A stretch of DNA of 64,000 nt, from positions 806,001-870,000 of the forward strand of contig CP032507.1 of the NCBI GenBank assembly GCA_008375315.1, written 5' to 3'. Below the pieces are notes generated by a model. It was not told where the DNA came from, did no database searches, and saw only the letters and a list, made by a program, of their open reading frames with translations. The stretch is from Ectothiorhodospiraceae bacterium BW-2 (GTDB lineage Bacteria > Pseudomonadota > Gammaproteobacteria > Thiohalomonadales > Thiohalomonadaceae). Shown piece by piece: positions 28,514 through 64,000 of the stretch; within the stretch, counting starts at the first letter, position 1, and every line of letters begins with the position of its first letter. Made by a program: the position numbers and the translations under genes.

Positions 28514-28606
28514 GTAACCGTTCACTCTCCCTCCTTAATCTCCCTCTCCCGGCGGGAGAGGGTTGGGGTGAGGGGTAAAAATTTAGCGGGGAGAGTGAAC
28601 GGTTAC
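28514..28606. mobile_element. MITE-like palindromic element
   Basis: This 93-bp element has terminal inverted repeats GTAACCGTTCAC / GTGAACGGTTAC, and internal GC-rich dyads (CTCTCCC...GGGAGAG). CTTCCGG flanks it on both sides (28506-28512 and 28607-28613), which looks like a target-site duplication. The same element, reverse-complemented, forms the middle part of the 199-bp repeats at 49671, 51004 and 51501. It has no coding capacity, so any movement would need a transposase in trans. Confidence 0.7.
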
Positions 28607-48336: not shown

Positions 48337-48566
48337 GGTTGCCCCGCTGAGTCACATGATGCGAAACACCGGGCACGATGATTCTGGGAAGTCTTGCCAT
48401 GTCGTGATCTTACCGGACGAGATAATGAGTGTAAATGGTAAAGTGTCACCGTAACTTCCAGAGCCGCATCGAAGGTGTCGCCAGACGAGAAGCAGCCAGG
48501 CAAATCGGGCACCGTCACGCCAAAGCGCACACCATCGTCAGAATGCAAAACAACCGGAAAACGCAT
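48294..48566 (-). pseudogene. hicB: HicB-like antitoxin disrupted by a repeat
   Basis: The first 38 codons are a HicB N-terminus: MRFPVVLHSDDGVRFGVTV, PDLPGCFSSGDTFDAALE. A 72-bp repeat (48380-48451) then interrupts the gene, and the reading continues through the repeat and into methyltransferase DNA, giving a meaningless tail. An AGGAGG ribosome site precedes the start. The antitoxin C-terminus (dimerisation and DNA binding) is lost. Confidence 0.72.
48380..48451 (+). repeat. Tail-repeat copy inserted in hicB
   Basis: This is the right-hand 72 bp of the 199-bp repeat (from GATTCTGGGAAGTC to GTGTCACCGTAA) without the palindromic MITE part. It differs from the array copies by one base in GATAATgAGT. 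It interrupts hicB, and the other side joins the methyltransferase remnant. Confidence 0.75.
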
Positions 48567-49440: not shown

Positions 49441-49670
49441 ACGATGACTCCTCGTCTATTTCCACTCTGGTTCCCACGGTCATCCGTGGAAATCGACACT
49501 TTAACACCGCTCTGCATTCCCACGCCGGAGCGCGGGAACGAGAAAAACGGCTTTAACCTCTCTCGTTCCTGCTCCCGCTCCAGCTCCGCCAAAAACGCCT
49601 TGAGTAAGAATCGTCCGTCCATTCGTTGCGCTTGAGGGTAGTGAACAGGCGTTTTTGCTCGGCTTCGTCC

Positions 49671-49869
49671 CGGGTGTGACGAAAGACAGATTGGCGAACC
49701 TATAACCGTTCACGCTCCCTGCTAATTTTACCCCTCACCCCAACCCTCTCCCGCTGGGAGAGGGAGATTAAGGAGGGAGAGTGAACGGTTACGATTCTGG
49801 GAAGTCTTGCCATGTCGTGATCTTACCGGACGAGATAATTAGTGTAAATGGTAAAGTGTCACCGTAATT
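49671..49869 (+). repeat. 199-bp composite repeat, full copy
   Basis: It consists of a 31-bp lead (CGGGTGTGACGAAAGACAGA and on), a MITE-like palindrome with GTAACCGTTCAC-type ends (one base changed here), and a tail of about 77 bp ending GTGTCACCGTAATT. Two further full copies are at 51004 and 51501. The DNA from 49441 to 49670 contains only a short match (49560-49605) to the N-terminal coding region of the FGE gene at 52071; 49870-50012 shows nothing. Confidence 0.8.
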
Positions 49870-50012: not shown

Positions 50013-50882
50013 TTAGTGGTGCTGTTTTTTCTGTTGCAGCCGTAATAGTAGCTGTTGTAGCGCTTCGGGGCTGAGGTGTTCGGCTATTTCATCCGGCGAC
50101 AGATCTTTTAACCGTTCATCCGGCGAGTAGCGCTGTAATACTTCATCCGGCGAGTAGCGCTGTAATACTTCGTCCGCTGATAGCAGGTTAAGGTGGTCAG
50201 CGACAAACTCTTTGGTAAATTGCTCTAAGGTATAGGCCATGTCGGGTTCCTCTTCACTGTATATCTCTAGTAGTTGCTGTACTACGCCATAGATGATCTC
50301 ATTTGAGTATTGCCGGTAGCGTTGGCTCGCCTGGCGTACCCGTTCGATTTGGTGGCTAAACAGGTGCCACAGGTCATTGCGGGGGGCAGTGTCAATTTGG
50401 CTTAAAACGATAAGTTGTATCGTATCACTGCCCCACCGGAGTTGGTAGAGACCGGTTGTGTTATCTGTGGTCAGGTAGTTGGCCAGTTTTTGCGGGTAGT
50501 GGTGGCTAACAGCATAGAGTCCGAAGTCGGTTTGTGGTGGCCGTTTGCCCGCTTCGCTCAGCTGTTTACGATAGCTGACATAGTAACCTATCAGCTCTTT
50601 AATTGACCAGTCGGTGAGTGATTCGTGGTGCGATTTAAAGGTCATCAGGTTGTAACGCTGTAGCTGTGTCAGGCCATCGGGCAGGATGGTTGCTCCCGGC
50701 CAGTCGCTCGCTTCAGTCTGTTCGATCACGACTACATCGAGAAATTGCGGCACTTTAGCCACATCAACTTCTACTTCTACCCGGTACGGGCTGTCGTGAA
50801 ATTGTTGTTGTACCATCAGGCCAAATAGCCGGTGCCATTGGCGGCGGCGTTGTGGGGTGAGTGGGGACGGGGGACGCTTCAT
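50013..50882 (-). CDS. Rpn/PD-(D/E)XK transposase-family-like protein
   Basis: A 289-aa protein similar in style to the Rpn/YhgA-like and DUF4351-type nuclease family. The N-terminal half has FHDSPYRVEVEVDVAKVPQFLDVVVIEQ, suggesting a restriction-like core, then LPDGLTQLQRYNLMTFKSHHE. The C-terminus has four degenerate repeats around YSPDEVLQRYSPDERLKDLSPDE. Such proteins are recombination-promoting nucleases in some cases. The 5' end of the gene (from about codon 16) is duplicated downstream at 51331. Confidence 0.7.
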   Translation of the reverse strand: MKRPPSPLTPQRRRQWHRLFGLMVQQQFHDSPYRVEVEVDVAKVPQFLDVVVIEQTEASDWPGATILPDGLTQLQRYNLMTFKSHHESLTDWSIKELIGYYVSYRKQLSEAGKRPPQTDFGLYAVSHHYPQKLANYLTTDNTTGLYQLRWGSDTIQLIVLSQIDTAPRNDLWHLFSHQIERVRQASQRYRQYSNEIIYGVVQQLLEIYSEEEPDMAYTLEQFTKEFVADHLNLLSADEVLQRYSPDEVLQRYSPDERLKDLSPDEIAEHLSPEALQQLLLRLQQKKQHH

Positions 50883-51003
50883 GGGGAAATTGTAGCGTTA
50901 AGTTTGTGGGGGTGGCAAGGGGGCCGGTTAAGTCAGGGGGATGGTGAGATGGTCACAAAATTTAATTCAGTTACGACCCCTTTTATTCGACCCCTTTTAT
51001 TAC

Positions 51004-51936
51004 CGGGTGTGACGAAAGACAGATTGGCGAACCTGTAACCGTTCACGCTCCCTGCTAATTTTACCCCTCACCCCAACCCTCTCCCGCTGGGAGAGGGAGA
51101 TTAAGGAGGGAGAGTGAACGGTTACGATTCTGGGAAGTCTTGCCATGTCGTGATCTTACCGGACGAGATAATTAGTGTAAATGGTAAAGTGTCACCGTAA
51201 TTGACTCTCCCGCTGGGAGAGGGAGATTAAGGAGGGAGAGTGAACGGTTACGATTCTGGGAAGTCTTGCCATGTCGTGATCTTACCGGACGAGATAATTA
51301 GTGTAAATGGTAAAGTGTCACCGTAATTGTCATTGGCGGCGGCGTTGTGGGGTGAGTGGGGACGGGGGACGCTTCATGGGGAAATTGTAGCGTTAAGTTT
51401 GTGGGGGTGGCAAGGGGGCCGGTTAAGTCAGGGGGATGGTGAGATGGTCACAAAATTTAATTCAGTTACGACCCCTTTTATTACCGACCCCTTTTATTAC
51501 CGGGTGTGACGAAAGACAGATTGGCGAACCTGTAACCGTTCACGCTCCCTGCTAATTTTACCCCTCACCCCAACCCTCTCCCGCTGGGAGAGGGAGATTA
51601 AGGAGGGAGAGTGAACGGTTACGATTCTGGGAAGTCTTGCCATGTCGTGATCTTACCGGACGAGATAATTAGTGTAAATGGTAAAGTGTCACCGTAATTG
51701 GAGAGGGAGATTAAGGAGGGAGAGTGAACGGTTACGATTCTGGGAAGTCTTGCCATGTCGTGATCTTACCGGACGAGATAATTAGTGTAAATGGTAAAGT
51801 GTCACCGTAATTGCGTAATTGTAAAGTGTCACCGTAATTGACCGTAATTGGCGAGATAATTAGTGTAAATGGTAAAGTGTCACCGTAATTGCGGGACGAG
51901 ATAATTAGTGTAAATGATAAAGTGTCACCGTAATTG
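51004..51936 (+). repeat. Nested array of repeats with a common 3' end
   Basis: Nine consecutive segments each end in the same bases, ccgtaattg, but begin at different points of the 199-bp unit: 51004-51203 (full), 51205-51329, 51331-51700 (full unit plus the gene-start DNA), 51701-51813, 51814-51821, 51822-51840, 51841-51850, 51851-51891 and 51892-51936. Junctions carry zero to two extra bases. No gene is present. The array fills the space between the nuclease gene and the FGE gene. Confidence 0.85.
51331..51700 (+). repeat. Duplicated segment including the start of the nuclease gene
   Basis: This segment repeats 50836-51203, with an offset of 495 bp and a two-base insertion in the TTTTATT tract. 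It includes about 46 bp of the nuclease coding sequence (from codon 16 toward the start), its upstream DNA and one full 199-bp repeat. Confidence 0.85.
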
Positions 51937-51972
51937 GAACCTGTGGATAACTCTGTCAAAAAAATCGCGCGA

Positions 51973-51988
51973 GCCCCGCACGCGGGGC
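51973..51988. other. GC-rich hairpin
   Basis: GCCCCGC-AC-GCGGGGC is a seven-base stem with a two-base loop, preceded on the plus strand by a run of A. Read on the minus strand it is a stem followed by T residues, so it could be a terminator for minus-strand transcription leaving the FGE gene. Confidence 0.45.
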
Positions 51989-52070
51989 ACTCTGTAACGG
52001 CTCCATCGGCACTCATCACCTAATCCGTCCCACTGAGTTTAAAGGGTAAAAGGGTAAGGGGGACATAGGG

Positions 52071-52970
52071 TTAGTCCTGGAGAATCAGACGGAAGCCGTA
52101 GCCGTACCCGCGGTAGCCGGTGCTGTCCCTGCCGCGGTCGGCCGAACGGAGGTAGGTCGGTCTGCTGAACCAGGAACCACCGCGCAGAACGCGCCGGCCA
52201 CACTCACCGCTCTCCCAAGCACTGCCATCAGCCGGAGCGCCATGGTAGCTGTTGTTCCAACAATCCTGCACCCACTCCCAGACATTGCCGCTCATGTCAT
52301 ATAACCCAAAGGCGTTGGGTTGAAACGAGCCAACAGGTAGTGTTATCTTGCGATAGGTGCCGGTCTTAGCGCCGCAATCTTTATAGTCATAATTACCATC
52401 ATAGTTTGCTTGCTTTGTAGTGATACAATTTCCTGTCCAGAACGGAGTGGTGGTGCCGCCTCGAGCCGCATACTCCCACTCAGCCTCACTCGGTAAACGG
52501 TAACGCTTGCTCGTCTTTTGGTTCAGTTTTTTGATGTATTGCTGAATATCATCCCAACTGACATTTTCAACCGGACAGTTGCTGCCGCAGTTACTAAAAT
52601 GGCTCGGATTGCTCCCCATCACAGCCTGCCACTGCCCTTGGGTCACTTCGTATTTACCTATTTTGAAGCTGTCAAGACAGACGCGATGCACCGGTTTTTC
52701 GTCACTATCACCACTGTTGCTGCCCATCTGATAGCAGCCGCCTTTAACCAATACCATCTCGCCAACCAACTCCCGCTCCCGCTCCCGCTCCTTTCTCTCC
52801 CGCTCCTGCTCCGCCAAAAACGCCTTGAGCTGGCTGACATTGCGTTGCAACAGCGCATCTGCTGCACCCTCATCTGCCCACGCCACCGCACTAAATAGCC
52901 ACGCAATTCCCACACTCATCCCTATCCATCGTCTCTCTCTCACCACACCGCTCCTCGACTTGCTGATCAT
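52071..52970 (-). CDS. Secreted FGE/SUMF1-domain protein, possible remote DGR target
   Basis: A 299-aa protein with an N-terminal signal peptide (WIGMSVGIAWLFSAVAWA), a short charged coiled coil, and a formylglycine-generating-enzyme-like domain: MVLVKGGCYQMGS, YEVTQGQWQAVMGSNPSHF, YRLPSEAEWEYAARGG, and GNVWEWVQDC. The last 40 residues, RRVLRGGSWFSRP to GYGFRLILQD, align with the variable region of the DGR targets at 61067 and 63128. All but one of the residues at the variable positions are encoded by NNC codons, as would follow from an AAC template. Framework codons differ from the TR here, so the local TR did not write it. Catalytic FGE activity is not implied. Confidence 0.85.
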   Translation of the reverse strand: MISKSRSGVVRERRWIGMSVGIAWLFSAVAWADEGAADALLQRNVSQLKAFLAEQERERKERERERELVGEMVLVKGGCYQMGSNSGDSDEKPVHRVCLDSFKIGKYEVTQGQWQAVMGSNPSHFSNCGSNCPVENVSWDDIQQYIKKLNQKTSKRYRLPSEAEWEYAARGGTTTPFWTGNCITTKQANYDGNYDYKDCGAKTGTYRKITLPVGSFQPNAFGLYDMSGNVWEWVQDCWNNSYHGAPADGSAWESGECGRRVLRGGSWFSRPTYLRSADRGRDSTGYRGYGYGFRLILQD

Positions 52971-53052
52971 CCGTTGATTATACCTACTTTTGCCTGCTTA
53001 TGGCATAATTGAACTTCAATGAACCATCGAAACAGAGATGAGGAGCACTATC

Positions 53053-55308
53053 ATGGGTCAATTCAGAACGCTAGCAGTTGTTGCAGCCGCTATATTGCTT
53101 AGTAGCTGCGGCGGAGGGGGGGTTAAGTCGGTTAAACCGGTCATTCAAAACGACCCCTCGCCAATGGCCGCTAAACAGCCTTCCACCCCACCCGAAGCAA
53201 AAACCCCAACATCGCTGAGTGATGCCCTGCTCAACGGCAGCGACGAGGCGACTCTTGCCCGTCTGCTGCCGCAGTTTCGTGCCGATCTCAACCGCCCCGA
53301 TGCCAGCGGCTTTACCCCGTTGATGCAGCTTGCCGCTACCGCCTCCCCTGCGCTGCTCAAGCAGGCGCTGCAGTTAGGGGGCGATCCGTCACAGAAGGTA
53401 ACCGTAAACGACCGCAGCTTCGATACAGTCGATATGGTGCAGGCGGTATTTGCCCTACAGCGACCAGCCTCAATACAGCAACAGCAGCAGGGGGCGCTCA
53501 CCCTTAGCGGTACGGCAAACGCCGCCCCCTCGACCACGCCGCTCAGCCCCGAACAGGCGCAGCAGCTTGTGGTCAAACTAGCACTGCTGCAGAGCTATCA
53601 GGCCGAGCAGCAGCTACGCGCTGCCGATCCACAGCACACTAAGCTGCAACGCGAGTTTCAGCAGTGGAGCGATACAACCCGCCAGCAACTAGCGGCACTC
53701 AGCCAGCCGATTGCTACCATTGCCGAACCGACACTGCCGCCGGTTGAGACCTTTGCTAAGAGCCCATTTGAGAGTGTCGCGATGTTTCAGCAGCGCATGG
53801 AGCAGGCGCGGCAGCGACGCGAGCAGCAGACCGCCAAACTACTCGCCGACTACCGCCAGCGCGTCGAGCAGCGTAACCGTCAGGTCGAGAAAACGAGCCG
53901 CGAACTCGCGCAACTGCAGCAGCAGATTACCCAACGCAATGACGATTATCAGCAGCGCCTCGCCGCCATTAGCGCCGACATTGAGCAGCGCATCGCCAAA
54001 CAGCAGCCGCACTTTATCGCCAAGGCGGTCGCCACCGTCTATGGCGCACCGTGGCTGCAGGCGTTAGAGGTCGATGGCCAACCCAAATATGATGCCGAAA
54101 AGGGGCTAATGTTCGCCTCGCTCGGTTTTAGCCACCTTGAAGAGCGTCAGGAGGTGATCTTTCCGATCGCCGCCGGTAGGGGTGCCGAGCAGTTCTATCG
54201 CCAACTCCAAGCCGGCAGCCTGATACCACAAGTGGCGTTTGAGCGCGATGCGGCACAGCGCCTAACCCTCGCCGCCGTCACCGTTGCCCAAGCGCAGCAC
54301 ACCCTGAGCGCCCGCCTCGGCAGCAGCGAGCTATTTACCACCGCCAAACCGCTAGAGGTGGTGTTGCAAAACCGCTCCACCCCCGAACAGTTAGCACAGG
54401 CAGAGCAGCCGCTAGTGCGCTTCGATGAGCAGGCGTTAGCGCAGCTACAACTGCAAAACCCCAATATCAAAGATGTACAGTTTGAGGCCTATCTACAGCA
54501 GGAGCAGCAGGCCTTTAACGACGATATTCCACAGCGGTTAGCGCAGATTAGCGCCGCGCCGATCGATAAGCGGCAGTGGCTATTTGTCATCGGCATTGAG
54601 CGGTATCAAAATACCGATAACATCCTCTACTCGCGCCGCTCGGCGGAGCTGTTTGCGCAGGTAGCCGCGAAGAGCCTCGGCATCCACCCATCGCGGCAGG
54701 TGGTGCTGCTCGATGATCGGGCGAGCAGCGGTCAGATTCAAGATCAACTCAAGCTGATGTTAAGCAAAGTCGAAGCGGGCGATCGCATCCTCTTCTACTA
54801 CTCCGGCCACGGCCTGCCGGTCGCTGAGGAGGGCAATACCCCCTATCTGCTCCCCGCCGATAAGATCCCCGACTTTGTCGCCGATGATCCCTTCTATCGT
54901 GCCGATAACCTCTATCAGCGGCTACAAAGCTCCGCCGCCGCACAGGTGGTGGTCTTTATGGACTCCTGTTTTACCGGCACCACCGATGGTAAAAGCATCT
55001 TTGGCGGCACCAGAGCCGCCACCCGTCTGCAACCGCGCCGCCTCACGCTCGGTGAGGGCGCTAAGATGGCGGTGTTAACCGCCGGCACCGATAAACAGTT
55101 CTCCAACGCGCTACCGGAGAGCGGCCACCGCCTCTTTAGCTACTATCTGATGAAGGAGTTGATGAATCGACCCGCCTCGGTCGGCGATCTGGCGCTTCAG
55201 GTCACCGCCGCCGTTGATCGCAAAAGCCGCGATTTAGGCGGCCTAAACCGACAGACCCCGGTGCTAGCCGGTAACCGGCAGCTATCGCTGCAATCATCGA
55301 ATCGCTAA
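53053..55308 (+). CDS. Caspase-domain (C14) lipoprotein
   Basis: A 751-aa exported protein with lipobox SSC near residue 21, a low-complexity Pro region, an ankyrin-like segment (ASGFTPLMQLAA), and a long Gln-rich coiled coil (about 170-330). The C-terminal peptidase C14 domain has the catalytic pair His586 in FYYSGHG and Cys639 in FMDSCFTG, with WLFVIGIERYQNTDNI at its start. Both catalytic residues are present. An AGGAG sits 7 bp before the ATG at 53053; an ATG at 53038 is the alternative. The upstream gap contains an extended -10 (TGGCATAAT). It begins the DGR-associated block. Confidence 0.88.
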   Translation: MGQFRTLAVVAAAILLSSCGGGGVKSVKPVIQNDPSPMAAKQPSTPPEAKTPTSLSDALLNGSDEATLARLLPQFRADLNRPDASGFTPLMQLAATASPALLKQALQLGGDPSQKVTVNDRSFDTVDMVQAVFALQRPASIQQQQQGALTLSGTANAAPSTTPLSPEQAQQLVVKLALLQSYQAEQQLRAADPQHTKLQREFQQWSDTTRQQLAALSQPIATIAEPTLPPVETFAKSPFESVAMFQQRMEQARQRREQQTAKLLADYRQRVEQRNRQVEKTSRELAQLQQQITQRNDDYQQRLAAISADIEQRIAKQQPHFIAKAVATVYGAPWLQALEVDGQPKYDAEKGLMFASLGFSHLEERQEVIFPIAAGRGAEQFYRQLQAGSLIPQVAFERDAAQRLTLAAVTVAQAQHTLSARLGSSELFTTAKPLEVVLQNRSTPEQLAQAEQPLVRFDEQALAQLQLQNPNIKDVQFEAYLQQEQQAFNDDIPQRLAQISAAPIDKRQWLFVIGIERYQNTDNILYSRRSAELFAQVAAKSLGIHPSRQVVLLDDRASSGQIQDQLKLMLSKVEAGDRILFYYSGHGLPVAEEGNTPYLLPADKIPDFVADDPFYRADNLYQRLQSSAAAQVVVFMDSCFTGTTDGKSIFGGTRAATRLQPRRLTLGEGAKMAVLTAGTDKQFSNALPESGHRLFSYYLMKELMNRPASVGDLALQVTAAVDRKSRDLGGLNRQTPVLAGNRQLSLQSSNR

Positions 55309-59794: not shown

Positions 59795-60874
59795 ATGAAC
59801 CGAACTTCAAGACTCACACTCTTGCCTCTGCTGCTACTCTCATCCTCGCTGCATGCCGGTGCGCGGGTGGACCCGGCCAGCTTGCGCATCGAACCGCAGG
59901 GCGACACCATTGTAATTCACTACCGCCTTGAGGGGGATGCGGGCGAGCGCCACAACCTGCGTCTGAGTGCCAGCCTTAACGGCACACGCCTGACGCCACG
60001 CACCCTGAGCGGCTCCCTGCAGCAGGTTCGGGTGGGTGAAGCGCAACCACTGCGCTGGCAGGCGCTCGCCGACTATCCCAAGGGGCTACAGGGCGACCTG
60101 AGCATCACCCTAGAGACCGAGTGGGAGCAGTCGCCCACCTGGCCCTTCACCATCACGCCGCTACCGGCGCACGCCACGGTCAAAATCATGAACATTGTTC
60201 CCAAATACCAGCCCGGCATGGCGCTGGCCACTGGGGAGTATGATGTGCTGGTACAGGCTGATGGCTACCCAAGCTGGCGAGAGACCATCCACCACAGTGG
60301 CGCAGCAACCCGCCAGAGCGTGAATTTAAGCGACCTACGCGAAGCGGAGCGGCGGCGCACCGAAGAGGAGAAACAGCGCCAAGCAGCCCTAGAGCGCGAC
60401 CGCCAGGCGGAGCGGGAGCAGCAGCGCCAGGCTGAACTGAAACGGCAGCAACAGGCAGAAGCAGAGCGCCAGGCAGCGCTGCAAAAACAGCAGCGAGAGT
60501 CGGCCAACCAAGCCTTCACCGACCTGACCACTGGCATGACATTTGTTTATATCAAAGGTGGCCGCTATCGGATGGGCAGTCCGAGCGATGAATCGGGTCG
60601 CGACGGTGACGAGAGCCAACACTGGGTCACGGTTGGGGACTACTGGATAGGCCAATACGAAGTAACCCAAGGCGAGTGGCAGAAAACAACCCCTCTAGCT
60701 TTAAAAAAGGCGACAACTACCCGGTTGAAGGGGTTAGCTGGCATGATGCGCTTGACTTTATTGACAAACTCAATCGCCAAAGCGGTAAAAATTACCGTCT
60801 GCCGACCGAAGCGGAGTGGGAGTATGCGGCACGAGGGGGGACAACGACCGCCTACTGGTGGGGAGATGGCGTAG
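59795..60874 (+). CDS. DGR target protein 1, upstream frame (PEGA-FGE)
   Basis: This frame encodes the N-terminal part of target 1: signal peptide (about 1-22), a beta-rich domain, a PEGA-like module (about 125-180, VKIMNIVPKYQPGMALATGEYDV), a charged coiled coil (about 182-235), and the start of the FGE domain from about 247 (TGMTFVYIKGGRYRMGSP). The correct frame ends at EWQK, residue 297 (60685). Beyond it the family sequence (NNPSSFKKG) continues in the -1 frame, so the last 60 residues of this reading are spurious. A loss of about 10 bp, equal to VMG plus one base, would explain the shift. Confidence 0.8.
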   Translation: MNRTSRLTLLPLLLLSSSLHAGARVDPASLRIEPQGDTIVIHYRLEGDAGERHNLRLSASLNGTRLTPRTLSGSLQQVRVGEAQPLRWQALADYPKGLQGDLSITLETEWEQSPTWPFTITPLPAHATVKIMNIVPKYQPGMALATGEYDVLVQADGYPSWRETIHHSGAATRQSVNLSDLREAERRRTEEEKQRQAALERDRQAEREQQRQAELKRQQQAEAERQAALQKQQRESANQAFTDLTTGMTFVYIKGGRYRMGSPSDESGRDGDESQHWVTVGDYWIGQYEVTQGEWQKTTPLALKKATTTRLKGLAGMMRLTLLTNSIAKAVKITVCRPKRSGSMRHEGGQRPPTGGEMA

Positions 60875-61500: not shown

Positions 61501-61630
61501 CTGGGGGGGAGGACAAGCCGAAAGCCGAGGTTGTTGTTACGGTTGTCGGGATTGTTCCTGTTACGATTGGCGGCGCGCACCCTGGCAGGTTTGTTGTTCC
61601 ACGAACCGCCACGGTTAGCGCGGTTGCCGG
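61501..61630 (-). other. DGR template repeat (TR)
   Basis: The TR is read on the minus strand. In the frame matching VR it encodes 12 Asn codons (AAC or AAT) at the positions that vary in the targets, e.g. [20 protein letters not shown]. It has 31 adenines in 130 bp by hand count. It begins at CCGGCAACCG inside the last codons of the RT gene (RT stop at 61615-61617) and ends CTTGTCCTCCCCCCCAG. The TR RNA is copied by the RT-Avd complex with adenine-specific errors. Confidence 0.95.
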
Positions 61631-62682
61631 TCAGGCCGACCCCCACGGCGCAGTACCATACCGGCAAAGAGCTCGGTGAGCAACCCCTGCGTGCTGGCGT
61701 GCCGGGCGTGACCGCACCAACTCTGCACGCTTGGGTTGATATCGGCAAAGTCGAGACGGTGGTCGGCATACGCTTGTGCCATACGGCGCAGTTTGCGGGC
61801 AAAGCGGTGGCCATTATCATTACGCAACAGCCGATAATTGGGCAGTACGCGATAACCCAGATAGTCGATGCCGCATCTTACCGGCACAATATGGCACTTG
61901 TTTGGATGCAATGTCAGCCCCTCTTGCTGTAACTGACCGGCACACCAGCGTTGTGCATCGTGCAGCCATGCCTTGTCGTTGTTAAGTATCACCATGTCAT
62001 CAACATAACGCCCATAAGCGGGAGCTTTAAGTTGCTGTTTAACAGCATGATCAAACTCGTTCAGGTAGAGGTTGGCAAAAAACTGACTGGTTAGATTGCC
62101 GATAGGAATACCACATCCGACAGGCGAGCGTGCATCCTCCGGGCTGTTGTCGATGATTAAATCCAGCAGCCATAACAGTTTGGAGTCTTTAATATAGCGG
62201 CGCAGCTTCTCTTTTAGGCACTCACGGGGGATTGAGGGGAAATAGCGTTGAATATCCATCTGTAACACAAACGGGTAGATTTGTGCCCAGCGCTGATACT
62301 GCGCCACACCGACATGAGTGCCTTTACCCTTGCGGCAGGCGTAGCTGTGGTCAATAAAGGTACCATCAATCGCTGGTTCAATCAGACTCATCACAGCATG
62401 ATGAACAACCCGATCACGAAAGGGGGCGGCGGCAATTTGGCGCGGCTTGCGCTCGTAGAGGGTAAAGAGATGGTAGCGACCGGGCTGGTAGCGCTGCTCC
62501 CGCAGTTCGTGGTGTAGTTGCGACAGCTCCCGTTCCAGATTAAGGGTAAAGCGTAACACTGCCGGTTTGCGACGCTTGCCTTTTCGTGCCAGCAGATAGG
62601 CGCGATAGAGGTGCGCCGGGCTCGTCATCTCCTCCCAGAGATTACTTAGCCGTTTTCGCACTGCTTTGGTACCATCCGCCAA
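61615..62682 (-). CDS. DGR reverse transcriptase
   Basis: A 355-aa reverse transcriptase of the group II intron-related class. The N-terminus [19 protein letters not shown] is typical of DGR enzymes; the first catalytic Asp is in [12 protein letters not shown] (D143), the motif [21 protein letters not shown] (194-200 is the DGR-type IGxxxSQ rather than QGxxxSP), and the active-site YVDD is at 226-229. The start overlaps avd by 41 bp and the stop lies in the TR. It synthesises the mutagenised cDNA that replaces VR. No maturase or endonuclease domain is present, which fits a DGR and not a group II intron. Confidence 0.95.
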
Positions 62683-63004
62683 TTTGTCGCCCCAACTGCT
62701 CCATCAGTTCGGCAGCATAGGCATATTGCTGTTGGCCGGTGATGTTTAACTCAACACTTAAACGCCACAGGTGCTTTACCCGTTGCAAACGCAAGTTGGC
62801 TTTGCCCAACGGCGTTGCCGGGCGGTTGCTGTAGGCAGCCTCAACCAGATGCTCCAGCACATCGAGCAGACCCGATTCGATGCGCTCAGCCAAGGTAAAA
62901 CGCTGGTTGCGGGGGAATTTGCCCAAATGTGGAATAATCCACTTTAACAGGTCGTGGCACAGTTCAACCGCTGCAGGGGTGCTGACGGCCATTTTCTGTC
63001 TCAT
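62642..63004 (-). CDS. avd: DGR accessory variability determinant (bAvd)
   Basis: A 120-aa four-helix bundle protein. FPRNQRFTLAERIESGLLDVLEHLVEAAYSN is the Avd signature. Avd forms a pentamer that binds the RT and template RNA and is needed for mutagenic homing. AGGTT upstream of the ATG may be the ribosome site. The gene lies 120 bp after target 2 and overlaps the RT gene, with a terminator-like hairpin between it and target 2. Confidence 0.92.
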   Translation of the reverse strand: MRQKMAVSTPAAVELCHDLLKWIIPHLGKFPRNQRFTLAERIESGLLDVLEHLVEAAYSNRPATPLGKANLRLQRVKHLWRLSVELNITGQQQYAYAAELMEQLGRQIGGWYQSSAKTAK

Positions 63005-63047: not shown

Positions 63048-63127
63048 AACCCCGGGCTAGCGCCCCCGCAAGCGGGCCCCCCCATAAAGGTAAGAGCATA
63101 GAGCATAGAGCATAAAGGAAACACTAC
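63017..63127. repeat. 3' flank of VR2, inverted copy of VR1 flank
   Basis: Reverse-complement partner of 61197-61300. Homology continues upstream into both target genes' FGE coding regions, for example the identical stretch encoding GMTFVYIKGGRYRMGSP, so the two target genes are inverted duplicates on either side of the cassette. Confidence 0.85.
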
Positions 63128-64000
63128 CTGGGGGGGAGGACAAGCCGAAAGCCGTGGCTGTCGCCACGGAGGCCGGGATCGCTCCAGCCACGACTGGCGG
63201 CGCGCACCCCGGCAGGAACGTAGCCCCACGAACCGCCACGGAAAGCGCGGTTGCCGGAATCGGCACGATTCTTGCATGATGTTTCCGTGTTGTTTTTGTA
63301 GTTGCTATCATAACCTGAACAGGTCCACTCCCAGACATTACCAGCCGTGTCGTAGAGGCCGTAGGGGTTGGGTTTGAAACTAACTACGGGTGCGGTTGAT
63401 TTGTTGTCCCATTGGCTGCCACAGCCATCGCAATTGGCATTGTTGCGACCTACGCCATCTCCCCACCAGTAGGCGGTCGTTGTCCCCCCTCGTGCCGCAT
63501 ACTCCCACTCCGCTTCGGTCGGTAGGCGGTAGCTCTTGCCGCTCTTTTGGCTTAACCATGCCGCATAATCAGTCGCCTCTTCCCAGCTAACATAGACCAC
63601 CGGCTGCTTGTCACCATTGAGGCTATGGCCTTCATACTCTTGGCTATCGTGGTCGCGTTTGAAGAGGCGGTACTGCTGATTGGTCACTTCGGTTGTCGCT
63701 ATCCAGAAATCCCCAACCGTGACCCAGTGTTGGCTCTCGTCACCGTCGCGACCCGTTTCATCGGTCGGACTGCCCATCCGATAGCGGCCACCTTTGATAT
63801 AAACAAATGTCATGCCAGTGGTCGGGTCGGTGAAGGGCTCATTCCCCCCGCTAAGCGCAACCTCCTTTACCGTTGTCTGCCCGCCATGCTTGACCCACTC
63901 CAGCCACTTGTCGCGGCCTTCGGCACTCACCTCAACATAGTAGTCGCCATCGGGTAGCTCCATGCCCGGGCGATAGGGTTCGGTGATATTCATAATGCGT
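63124..64000 (-). CDS. DGR target protein 2 (PEGA-FGE), cut by window edge
   Basis: The frame is open to the right edge; the ATG at 63993 is internal, since the reading continues upstream as RIMNIT and matches the PEGA-like module of target 1 (KIMNIV). The visible part holds the end of that module, then an intact FGE domain: GMTFVYIKGGRYRMGSP, EVTNQQYRLFKRDHDSQ, YRLPTEAEWEYAARGG, GLYDTAGNVWEWTCSG and the variable C-terminus GGSWGYVPAGVRAASR. Unlike target 1 it shows no frameshift. It is the first gene of the minus-strand DGR group (target-avd-RT-TR). Confidence 0.92.
   Translation of the reverse strand, partial: RIMNITEPYRPGMELPDGDYYVEVSAEGRDKWLEWVKHGGQTTVKEVALSGGNEPFTDPTTGMTFVYIKGGRYRMGSPTDETGRDGDESQHWVTVGDFWIATTEVTNQQYRLFKRDHDSQEYEGHSLNGDKQPVVYVSWEEATDYAAWLSQKSGKSYRLPTEAEWEYAARGGTTTAYWWGDGVGRNNANCDGCGSQWDNKSTAPVVSFKPNPYGLYDTAGNVWEWTCSGYDSNYKNNTETSCKNRADSGNRAFRGGSWGYVPAGVRAASRGWSDPGLRGDSHGFRLVLPPR
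63128..63257 (-). repeat. Variable repeat VR2
   Basis: 130 bp at the 3' end of target 2 matching TR, with 22 differences at TR adenines (A to G, T or C) and one T-to-A difference in the codon before [10 protein letters not shown]1 and VR2 differ from each other at most varied sites, so they were diversified independently. Confidence 0.95.

Follow-up and report, generated by a model that had tools for sequence, protein, structure and literature searches.

Nested one-side-truncated units at a TIRYT-kind transposon end in Ectothiorhodospiraceae bacterium BW-2 as a transposon-end scar

The array and its surroundings

The window analyzed here is a 64,000-nucleotide stretch of the genome of Ectothiorhodospiraceae bacterium BW-2 (contig CP032507.1, positions 806,001 to 870,000), the assembly of which is one 4.07-Mb contig. 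A diversity-generating retroelement with a reverse transcriptase (PF00078) and Avd (NF033474, 84.4 bits, cut-off 80) lies at 61615–63004 on the minus strand, and near it are open reading frames with FGE-sulfatase domains at 52071–52970 (minus), 59795–60874 (plus) and 63124–63993 (minus), presumably of the kind that such retroelements diversify as their targets. A caspase-like (Peptidase_C14) reading frame at 53038–55308 (plus) adjoins an FGE-sulfatase-domain gene. A 91-bp MITE with GTAACCGTTCAC ends has many copies in the genome, including those at 51035–51125 and 28514–28606 of the window, and also occurs alone; the copy at 51035–51125 sits between a 32-bp leader, which is repeated elsewhere together with the MITE, and the left end of the TIRYT-kind transposon considered below.

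The array sits on this left-end fragment, which adjoins the MITE, and is made up of nine segments, one ancestral and eight extra. Read on the minus strand, the host flank (...CACAGGTTC) leads into the nine segments, the innermost of which runs on into ancestral sequence. As the first-pass annotation had described, the nine share one end, and all of them open with CAATTACG on the minus strand, while their stops differ (8 to 371 nt) and follow no common motif; the joins carry 0–2 filler bases, also as described. The related features of the window are given below; for each array segment, the second coordinate is its plus-strand end. Because the automatic unit parser halts at the 371-nt unit, the window's units were taken from a separate parse.

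48380–48454, minus: solo left-end fragment; no nested unit parsed at its end (genome position 854456)
49670–49869, minus: solo copy of the 200-bp unit, 99.5% identical; no nested unit parsed at its end (genome position 855869)
50951–51001, minus: end of a second family (GGGGTCAG type) with its own nested unit at 50974–51001
51003–51203, minus: ancestral innermost segment, the 200-bp unit plus one outer base (unit copies in the window 100%/99.5%)
51003–51034, minus: leader within the ancestral segment
51035–51125, minus: MITE within the ancestral segment, with MITE arms; found apart elsewhere
51126–51203, minus: TIRYT transposon left-end fragment, with the transposase start codon at 51144–51146; left end found apart elsewhere
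51204–51329, minus: extra unit, 125 nt copied plus filler T
51330–51700, minus: extra unit, 370 nt copied plus filler A; source reaches back to about 50836
51701–51813, minus: extra unit, 113 nt, without filler
51814–51821, minus: extra unit, 8 nt, only CGTAATTG
51822–51840, minus: extra unit, 19 nt
51841–51850, minus: extra unit, 10 nt
51851–51891, minus: extra unit, 40 nt copied plus filler C
51892–51936, minus: outermost extra unit, 43 nt with one mismatch, plus filler CG; the outer host flank begins at 51937

It had been stated that every segment ends at ccgtaattg, but the 8-nt unit contains no more than CGTAATTG, and CCGTAATTG is present eight times in the window and not nine. Similarly, the description of the segments as truncations of a 199-bp unit fails for the 371-nt unit, the source of which runs about 167 nt past the 199/200-bp unit into host DNA and includes the first bases of the reading frame at 50013–50882, so that copying ignores the other end of the 200-bp unit. 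The 371-nt unit matches the ancestral copy for its first 216 nt and then shows a 2-nt length difference at the second-family end; this end is recopied at 51469–51502 with a 16-nt versus a 14-nt period, and the two second-family copies of the window thus differ by 2 nt although the surrounding DNA is a recent duplicate. The order of the units was dropped as a clue to the site of addition, since any order can be explained. The outer flank at 51938–52742 is 95% identical to genome 997779–998583, and copies of this flank at genome 997779, 987754 and 1993272/1994074 have no array upstream.

The constant end and its parent transposon

The constant end of the array combines the element end ...CCGTAATT with a single base peculiar to the locus, which is G on the plus strand; at 15 other ends of this element examined in the same genome, the base at this place on the same strand is C (11) or T (4) and never G, which on the element strand corresponds to C in the window and to G (11) or A (4) at the others. 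A genome search with the terminus ...GTGTCACCGTAATT, allowing up to 3 mismatches, gave 32 matches, compared with 5 for the reversed control pattern, and the terminus recurs as the inverted ends of elements in the BW-2 genome. An intact copy of 767 bp (genome 984659–985425) encodes a 225-aa Y1 transposase and has inverted ends AATTACGGTGACAC on both sides, not GTAG REP hairpins. The element end carries CGGTGACA and not GGGG, so that the TIR motif GGGGWSAS is absent from it, while GGGG ends are present in the second BW-2 family and in several relatives; this motif does not define TIRYT, because Di Nocera et al. give it for some TIRs only. An early idea of a GGTGA/TTACC hairpin at the ends was dropped, as the folding test found no stable hairpin at the element ends on either strand.

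The transposase scores 41.2 bits against PF01797 (Y1_Tnp; cut-off 23) and 64.4 bits against the classical REP-associated family NF047646, below the cut-off of 80. In an alignment of 25 relatives, H60, Y119, N123 and P124 are invariant and H62 is present in at least 90%; the middle residue of the HUH motif is T in the BW-2 enzyme (NHTH) and V in the consensus, the family being mostly NHVH. The tyrosine motif is Y...NP, invariant in the relatives, and not the Y---Q motif of IS200/IS605 class 1.1. An AlphaFold2 model (mean pLDDT 89) has a C-terminal helical region, and its best structure match is E. coli TnpA_REP (4er8), followed by ISDra2 and IS608 chains, while a PDB sequence search with the transposase returned one weak, irrelevant match. 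With its Y1 domain, HUH and Y---NP motifs and inverted repeats without GTAG REP hairpins, the element fits the TIRYT kind, named TIRYT/TIRtron by Di Nocera et al. in 2013 (PMC3733652), and its transposase probably belongs to TnpA_Y1 subclass 2.1 of Quentin et al. 2018, as far as the available parts of that article describe it (PMC6006769). The fixed point of the array is the left end of such a Y1/HUH transposon, its transposase being related to TnpA_REP.

Nested units at other ends and their common breakpoint

Among the 16 ends of this element examined in the BW-2 genome, 5 carry nested units, namely (outer base on the element strand in brackets) the window (C), 976887 (G), 985425 (G), 1912030 (A) and 1638019 (G), with two units each at 985425 and 1912030; within a locus, the outer base is the same in every unit. 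The remaining 11 have no nested unit by the parser criteria, and none was found at 22 ends of local MITEs. The annotation had asked whether copies elsewhere also keep the constant end, and this is borne out by the nested ones among the 15 other ends, isolated copies ending alike. In the second TIRYT-type family, which has a gene at genome 510361–511038, nested units were judged by eye to be present at 6 of 8 ends, two of these six being copies of each other; its locus L044 has sites at genome 503907, 504097, 506786 and 512034. A search for the window locus in a sister genome covered 39 genomes including BW-2, 22 of which had some match, and among the matches listed only BW-2 had the same locus.

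The annotation had also been reminded of target-primed reverse transcription, for which the reverse transcriptase of the retroelement in the window would be a candidate. This enzyme and its Avd partner are indeed at hand about 10 kb away, the genome has eight RVT_1 matches, and the stop of an FGE-domain reading frame is followed, about 135 nt on, by the array; however, nothing links the reverse transcriptase to the array, and a DNA transposon that codes for an HUH tyrosine transposase terminates at the constant end. Membership of the array in a retroelement was rejected because of this terminus; in addition, nested units affect both element ends as well as the second family, they carry the local outer base, and one of them enters host DNA. 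This explanation is considered very improbable. The other suggestion made there, that copying was started and aborted again and again, each time on the end of the copy before, agrees well with the findings.

Relatives were collected as 39 loci and a further 30 (one of them the BW-2 genome), and 68 loci were taken into the end analysis. A strict detector, which accepted exact matches of 7 nt or more with no more than 4 filler bases and a start 2–12 nt outside the core, covered 98 ends, 37 of 135 candidate ends being left out with no core in range. Nested units were found at 27 of the 98 ends (15/54 left, 12/44 right), spread over 23 of 59 loci, and 71 ends had none by this detector; the same procedure at random positions of the same loci gave 665/56,175 (1.2%), and nested arrays thus exceed chance. 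Other GG[TG]GAC sites gave 12/185, which is above random, although some of them may be solo ends. When near-tandem runs lying up to 200 nt from gene ends were counted in a motif-free manner, they were present in 37/121 regions for TIRYT, 3/58 for classical REP transposases and 0/53 for IS200, where the gene borders of the IS200 and REP controls are longest-ORF estimates. The strict-detector, motif-free, parser, position-identity and join-homology analyses overlap widely in the relatives they use and do not count as independent evidence. The loci include a contig not labelled as a MAG, from Sphingopyxis sp. HIX (L074). A plasmid search for strain polymorphism returned eight records with distant relatives; in the three inspected by eye at their left ends, L210 had a nested unit and two had none, and no insertion common to several strains was found among these records. 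An assembly artefact is scarcely credible for a pattern seen in a single-contig genome and at 23 of 59 loci from other assemblies.

The point at which units begin was examined by comparing each unit with the innermost end, position by position outside the GGTGAC core (61 recurrences at 38 of the 98 ends), positions 1–4 being uninformative because a 5-mer core match was required. Identity fell from 0.84 at position 5 through 0.79 (position 6) and 0.65 (position 7) to 0.35, 0.28 and 0.26 at positions 8, 9 and 10, random anchors giving 0.33–0.50; the copies thus agree as far as position 7 and part at position 8. Between loci, identity in the same subset was 0.71 at position 5, 0.34 at position 6 and 0.25 at position 7 (0.70, 0.43 and 0.29 for all 98 ends). 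Position 7 is therefore locus-specific and yet common to the units of a locus, which shows local copying from a fixed breakpoint, and by the comparison of within-locus and between-locus identity units hold one to two non-element bases and have a single breakpoint as their start. When this breakpoint is estimated locus by locus with the strict detector, the values range over 5–12 with a mode of 7 (9/27) and are spread upward by chance matches outward; in some element groups the start seems to be at position 5.

The stops vary. Most parsed units are short (43/60 are 6–11 nt, 17 of these 43 coming from the right end of locus L070, and the parser finds none below 6 nt), while those of the window reach 371 nt, and many units stop inside the core. 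With the L070 right end left out, a 2-nt homology was present at 1 of 31 filler-free joins outside the window and at 0 of 4 within it. Joins nearly without homology argue against replication slippage or unequal crossing-over without a transposase, an account which needs no special enzyme and draws on the fact that short tandem duplications are common in bacteria. It also has to accommodate one fixed start despite different stops, together with an enrichment at TIRYT ends that is not seen at IS200, REP-transposase or MITE ends, and it holds little likelihood. A fixed start, a variable stop, the copying of a locus-specific base and an association with TIRYT ends are what the sequences show.

Proposed mechanism and comparison with known systems

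Cleavage by HUH transposases produces a 5'-phosphotyrosine together with a free 3'-OH, which can prime synthesis or be rejoined (PMC8266576). It is proposed, with a probability of roughly 0.57, that in the array the left end of the TIRYT transposon has been re-copied locally in short pieces, stacked one on another, by transposase nicking, extension and rejoining. The transposase (TnpA) would cut a single strand one to two bases beyond the conserved terminus, at a distance of 7 nt from the GGTGAC core on its outer side, and its tyrosine would hold the element-side 5' end; a polymerase would then extend the flank-side 3'-OH into the element, often by 7–11 nt (to or into the core) and sometimes by tens to hundreds, whereupon TnpA would rejoin the held 5' end to the extended 3' end, occasionally after 1–3 untemplated bases, and replication would fix the extra unit. 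If a nick at position 7/8 were followed by extension of the flank 3'-OH and rejoining, copying would run inward from exactly that point, and the products, as observed, would vary in a single respect, how far the extension went; units that retain the core would carry a new cut site, so that the process could repeat. TnpA cutting, nick-primed synthesis and TnpA rejoining are what we infer. Several points count against this mechanism: the ends have no hairpin, unlike those of well-studied relatives, the enzyme has NHTH where the family mostly has NHVH, the start is not always at position 7, most ends have no units, and GG[TG]GAC sites in general score above random. In known relatives, the ends to be joined are picked by guide-sequence pairing (PMC8266576), and by comparison it would be unusual for the enzyme to rejoin a strand to arbitrary 3' ends.

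The strongest rival keeps the same transposase cut and leaves the rest to the host: template switching or unequal end joining during repair would recopy the nicked or broken end, with the sister molecule as source, the enzyme not rejoining anything. Host repair likewise yields a fixed start and a variable stop, and the 370-nt unit reaching into host DNA suits long repair synthesis; it would, however, mostly need a second random join within a few nucleotides, given that 43/60 units are 6–11 nt, and without microhomology, so it is regarded as unlikely. It could also be imagined that the transposase moves short excised end fragments into existing ends, as a one-ended transposition beside itself, since HUH transposases join strands in trans and the many unit ends inside the core might reflect a second cut. 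Yet the units at a locus carry its own position-7 base, which is random between loci, and the window stops share no motif, which makes such transfer improbable. Nicking, limited copying and rejoining by the transposase itself is thus preferred. It is suggested more tentatively, and on balance with some doubt, that an undescribed "stutter" of this kind by TIRYT transposases on their own ends wrote nested arrays in many proteobacteria, recording the cut site and nick-primed synthesis, and that it may have seeded REP/BIME arrays.

The first-pass annotation knew of no named bacterial element that behaves in this way. The kind of element does have a name, TIRYT, but no description of nested one-side-truncated arrays at TIRYT ends was found in the open-licence literature searched, as far as the available parts of the articles go, and one could exist outside it. 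The available parts of PMC3733652 (TIRYT/TIRtron) and PMC6006769 (subclass 2.1) contain no mention of arrays with a fixed outer start such as those described here. TIRYT/TIRtron elements also have a Y1/HUH gene flanked by terminal inverted repeats and not by GTAG REPs (PMC3733652), and their TIRs are likewise found away from the gene, in some cases as dimers or clusters (PMC3733652, PMC6006769). The scars bear on the spread and clustering of REP- and TIR-type ends, the dissemination mechanisms having been called poorly understood (PMC8266576). From them a cut coordinate can be predicted for a class of enzymes on which the open-licence literature searched, to the extent that its articles were available, yielded no biochemistry, and the same interpretation could be applied to other genomes with short nested arrays.

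Arrays of transposase-end sequences are also known as REP/REPIN clusters and BIMEs (PMC3116915, PMC2817692, PMC3733652), and large REP clusters have been reported to be repeated often, together with adjoining DNA that varies in length (PMC3733652). In view of these large clusters and of the ordered REPIN/REP arrays (PMC3116915), transposase-end arrays as such are already known, as the available parts of these articles attest. REPIN and GI–GIII arrays consist of ordered, nearly identical or evenly spaced units in the available account (PMC3116915), whereas in the BW-2 array each unit has a different length and one side is fixed. IS200/IS605 elements (IS608, ISDra2) have the HUH fold and tyrosine chemistry in common with the BW-2 transposase but differ in that 53 IS200 gene-end regions had no nested copies and in that the tyrosine motif here is Y...NP. 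In the available parts of Nunvar et al. 2010 (PMC2817692), it was proposed that replication into the gene may start from the 3'-OH left when RAYT cleaves, and also that BIMEs may arise by a rolling-circle route. Transposase cutting, 3'-OH-primed synthesis and rejoining by the enzyme are alike in both schemes, but the rolling-circle model circularizes the module, while here short synthesis of variable length would lead to local duplication. As far as that partly available source goes, the arrays look like the footprint of the RAYT-cut priming proposed in it. The array in BW-2 is a transposon-end scar, of a sort common among the ends of one transposase kind and informative on the cut site.
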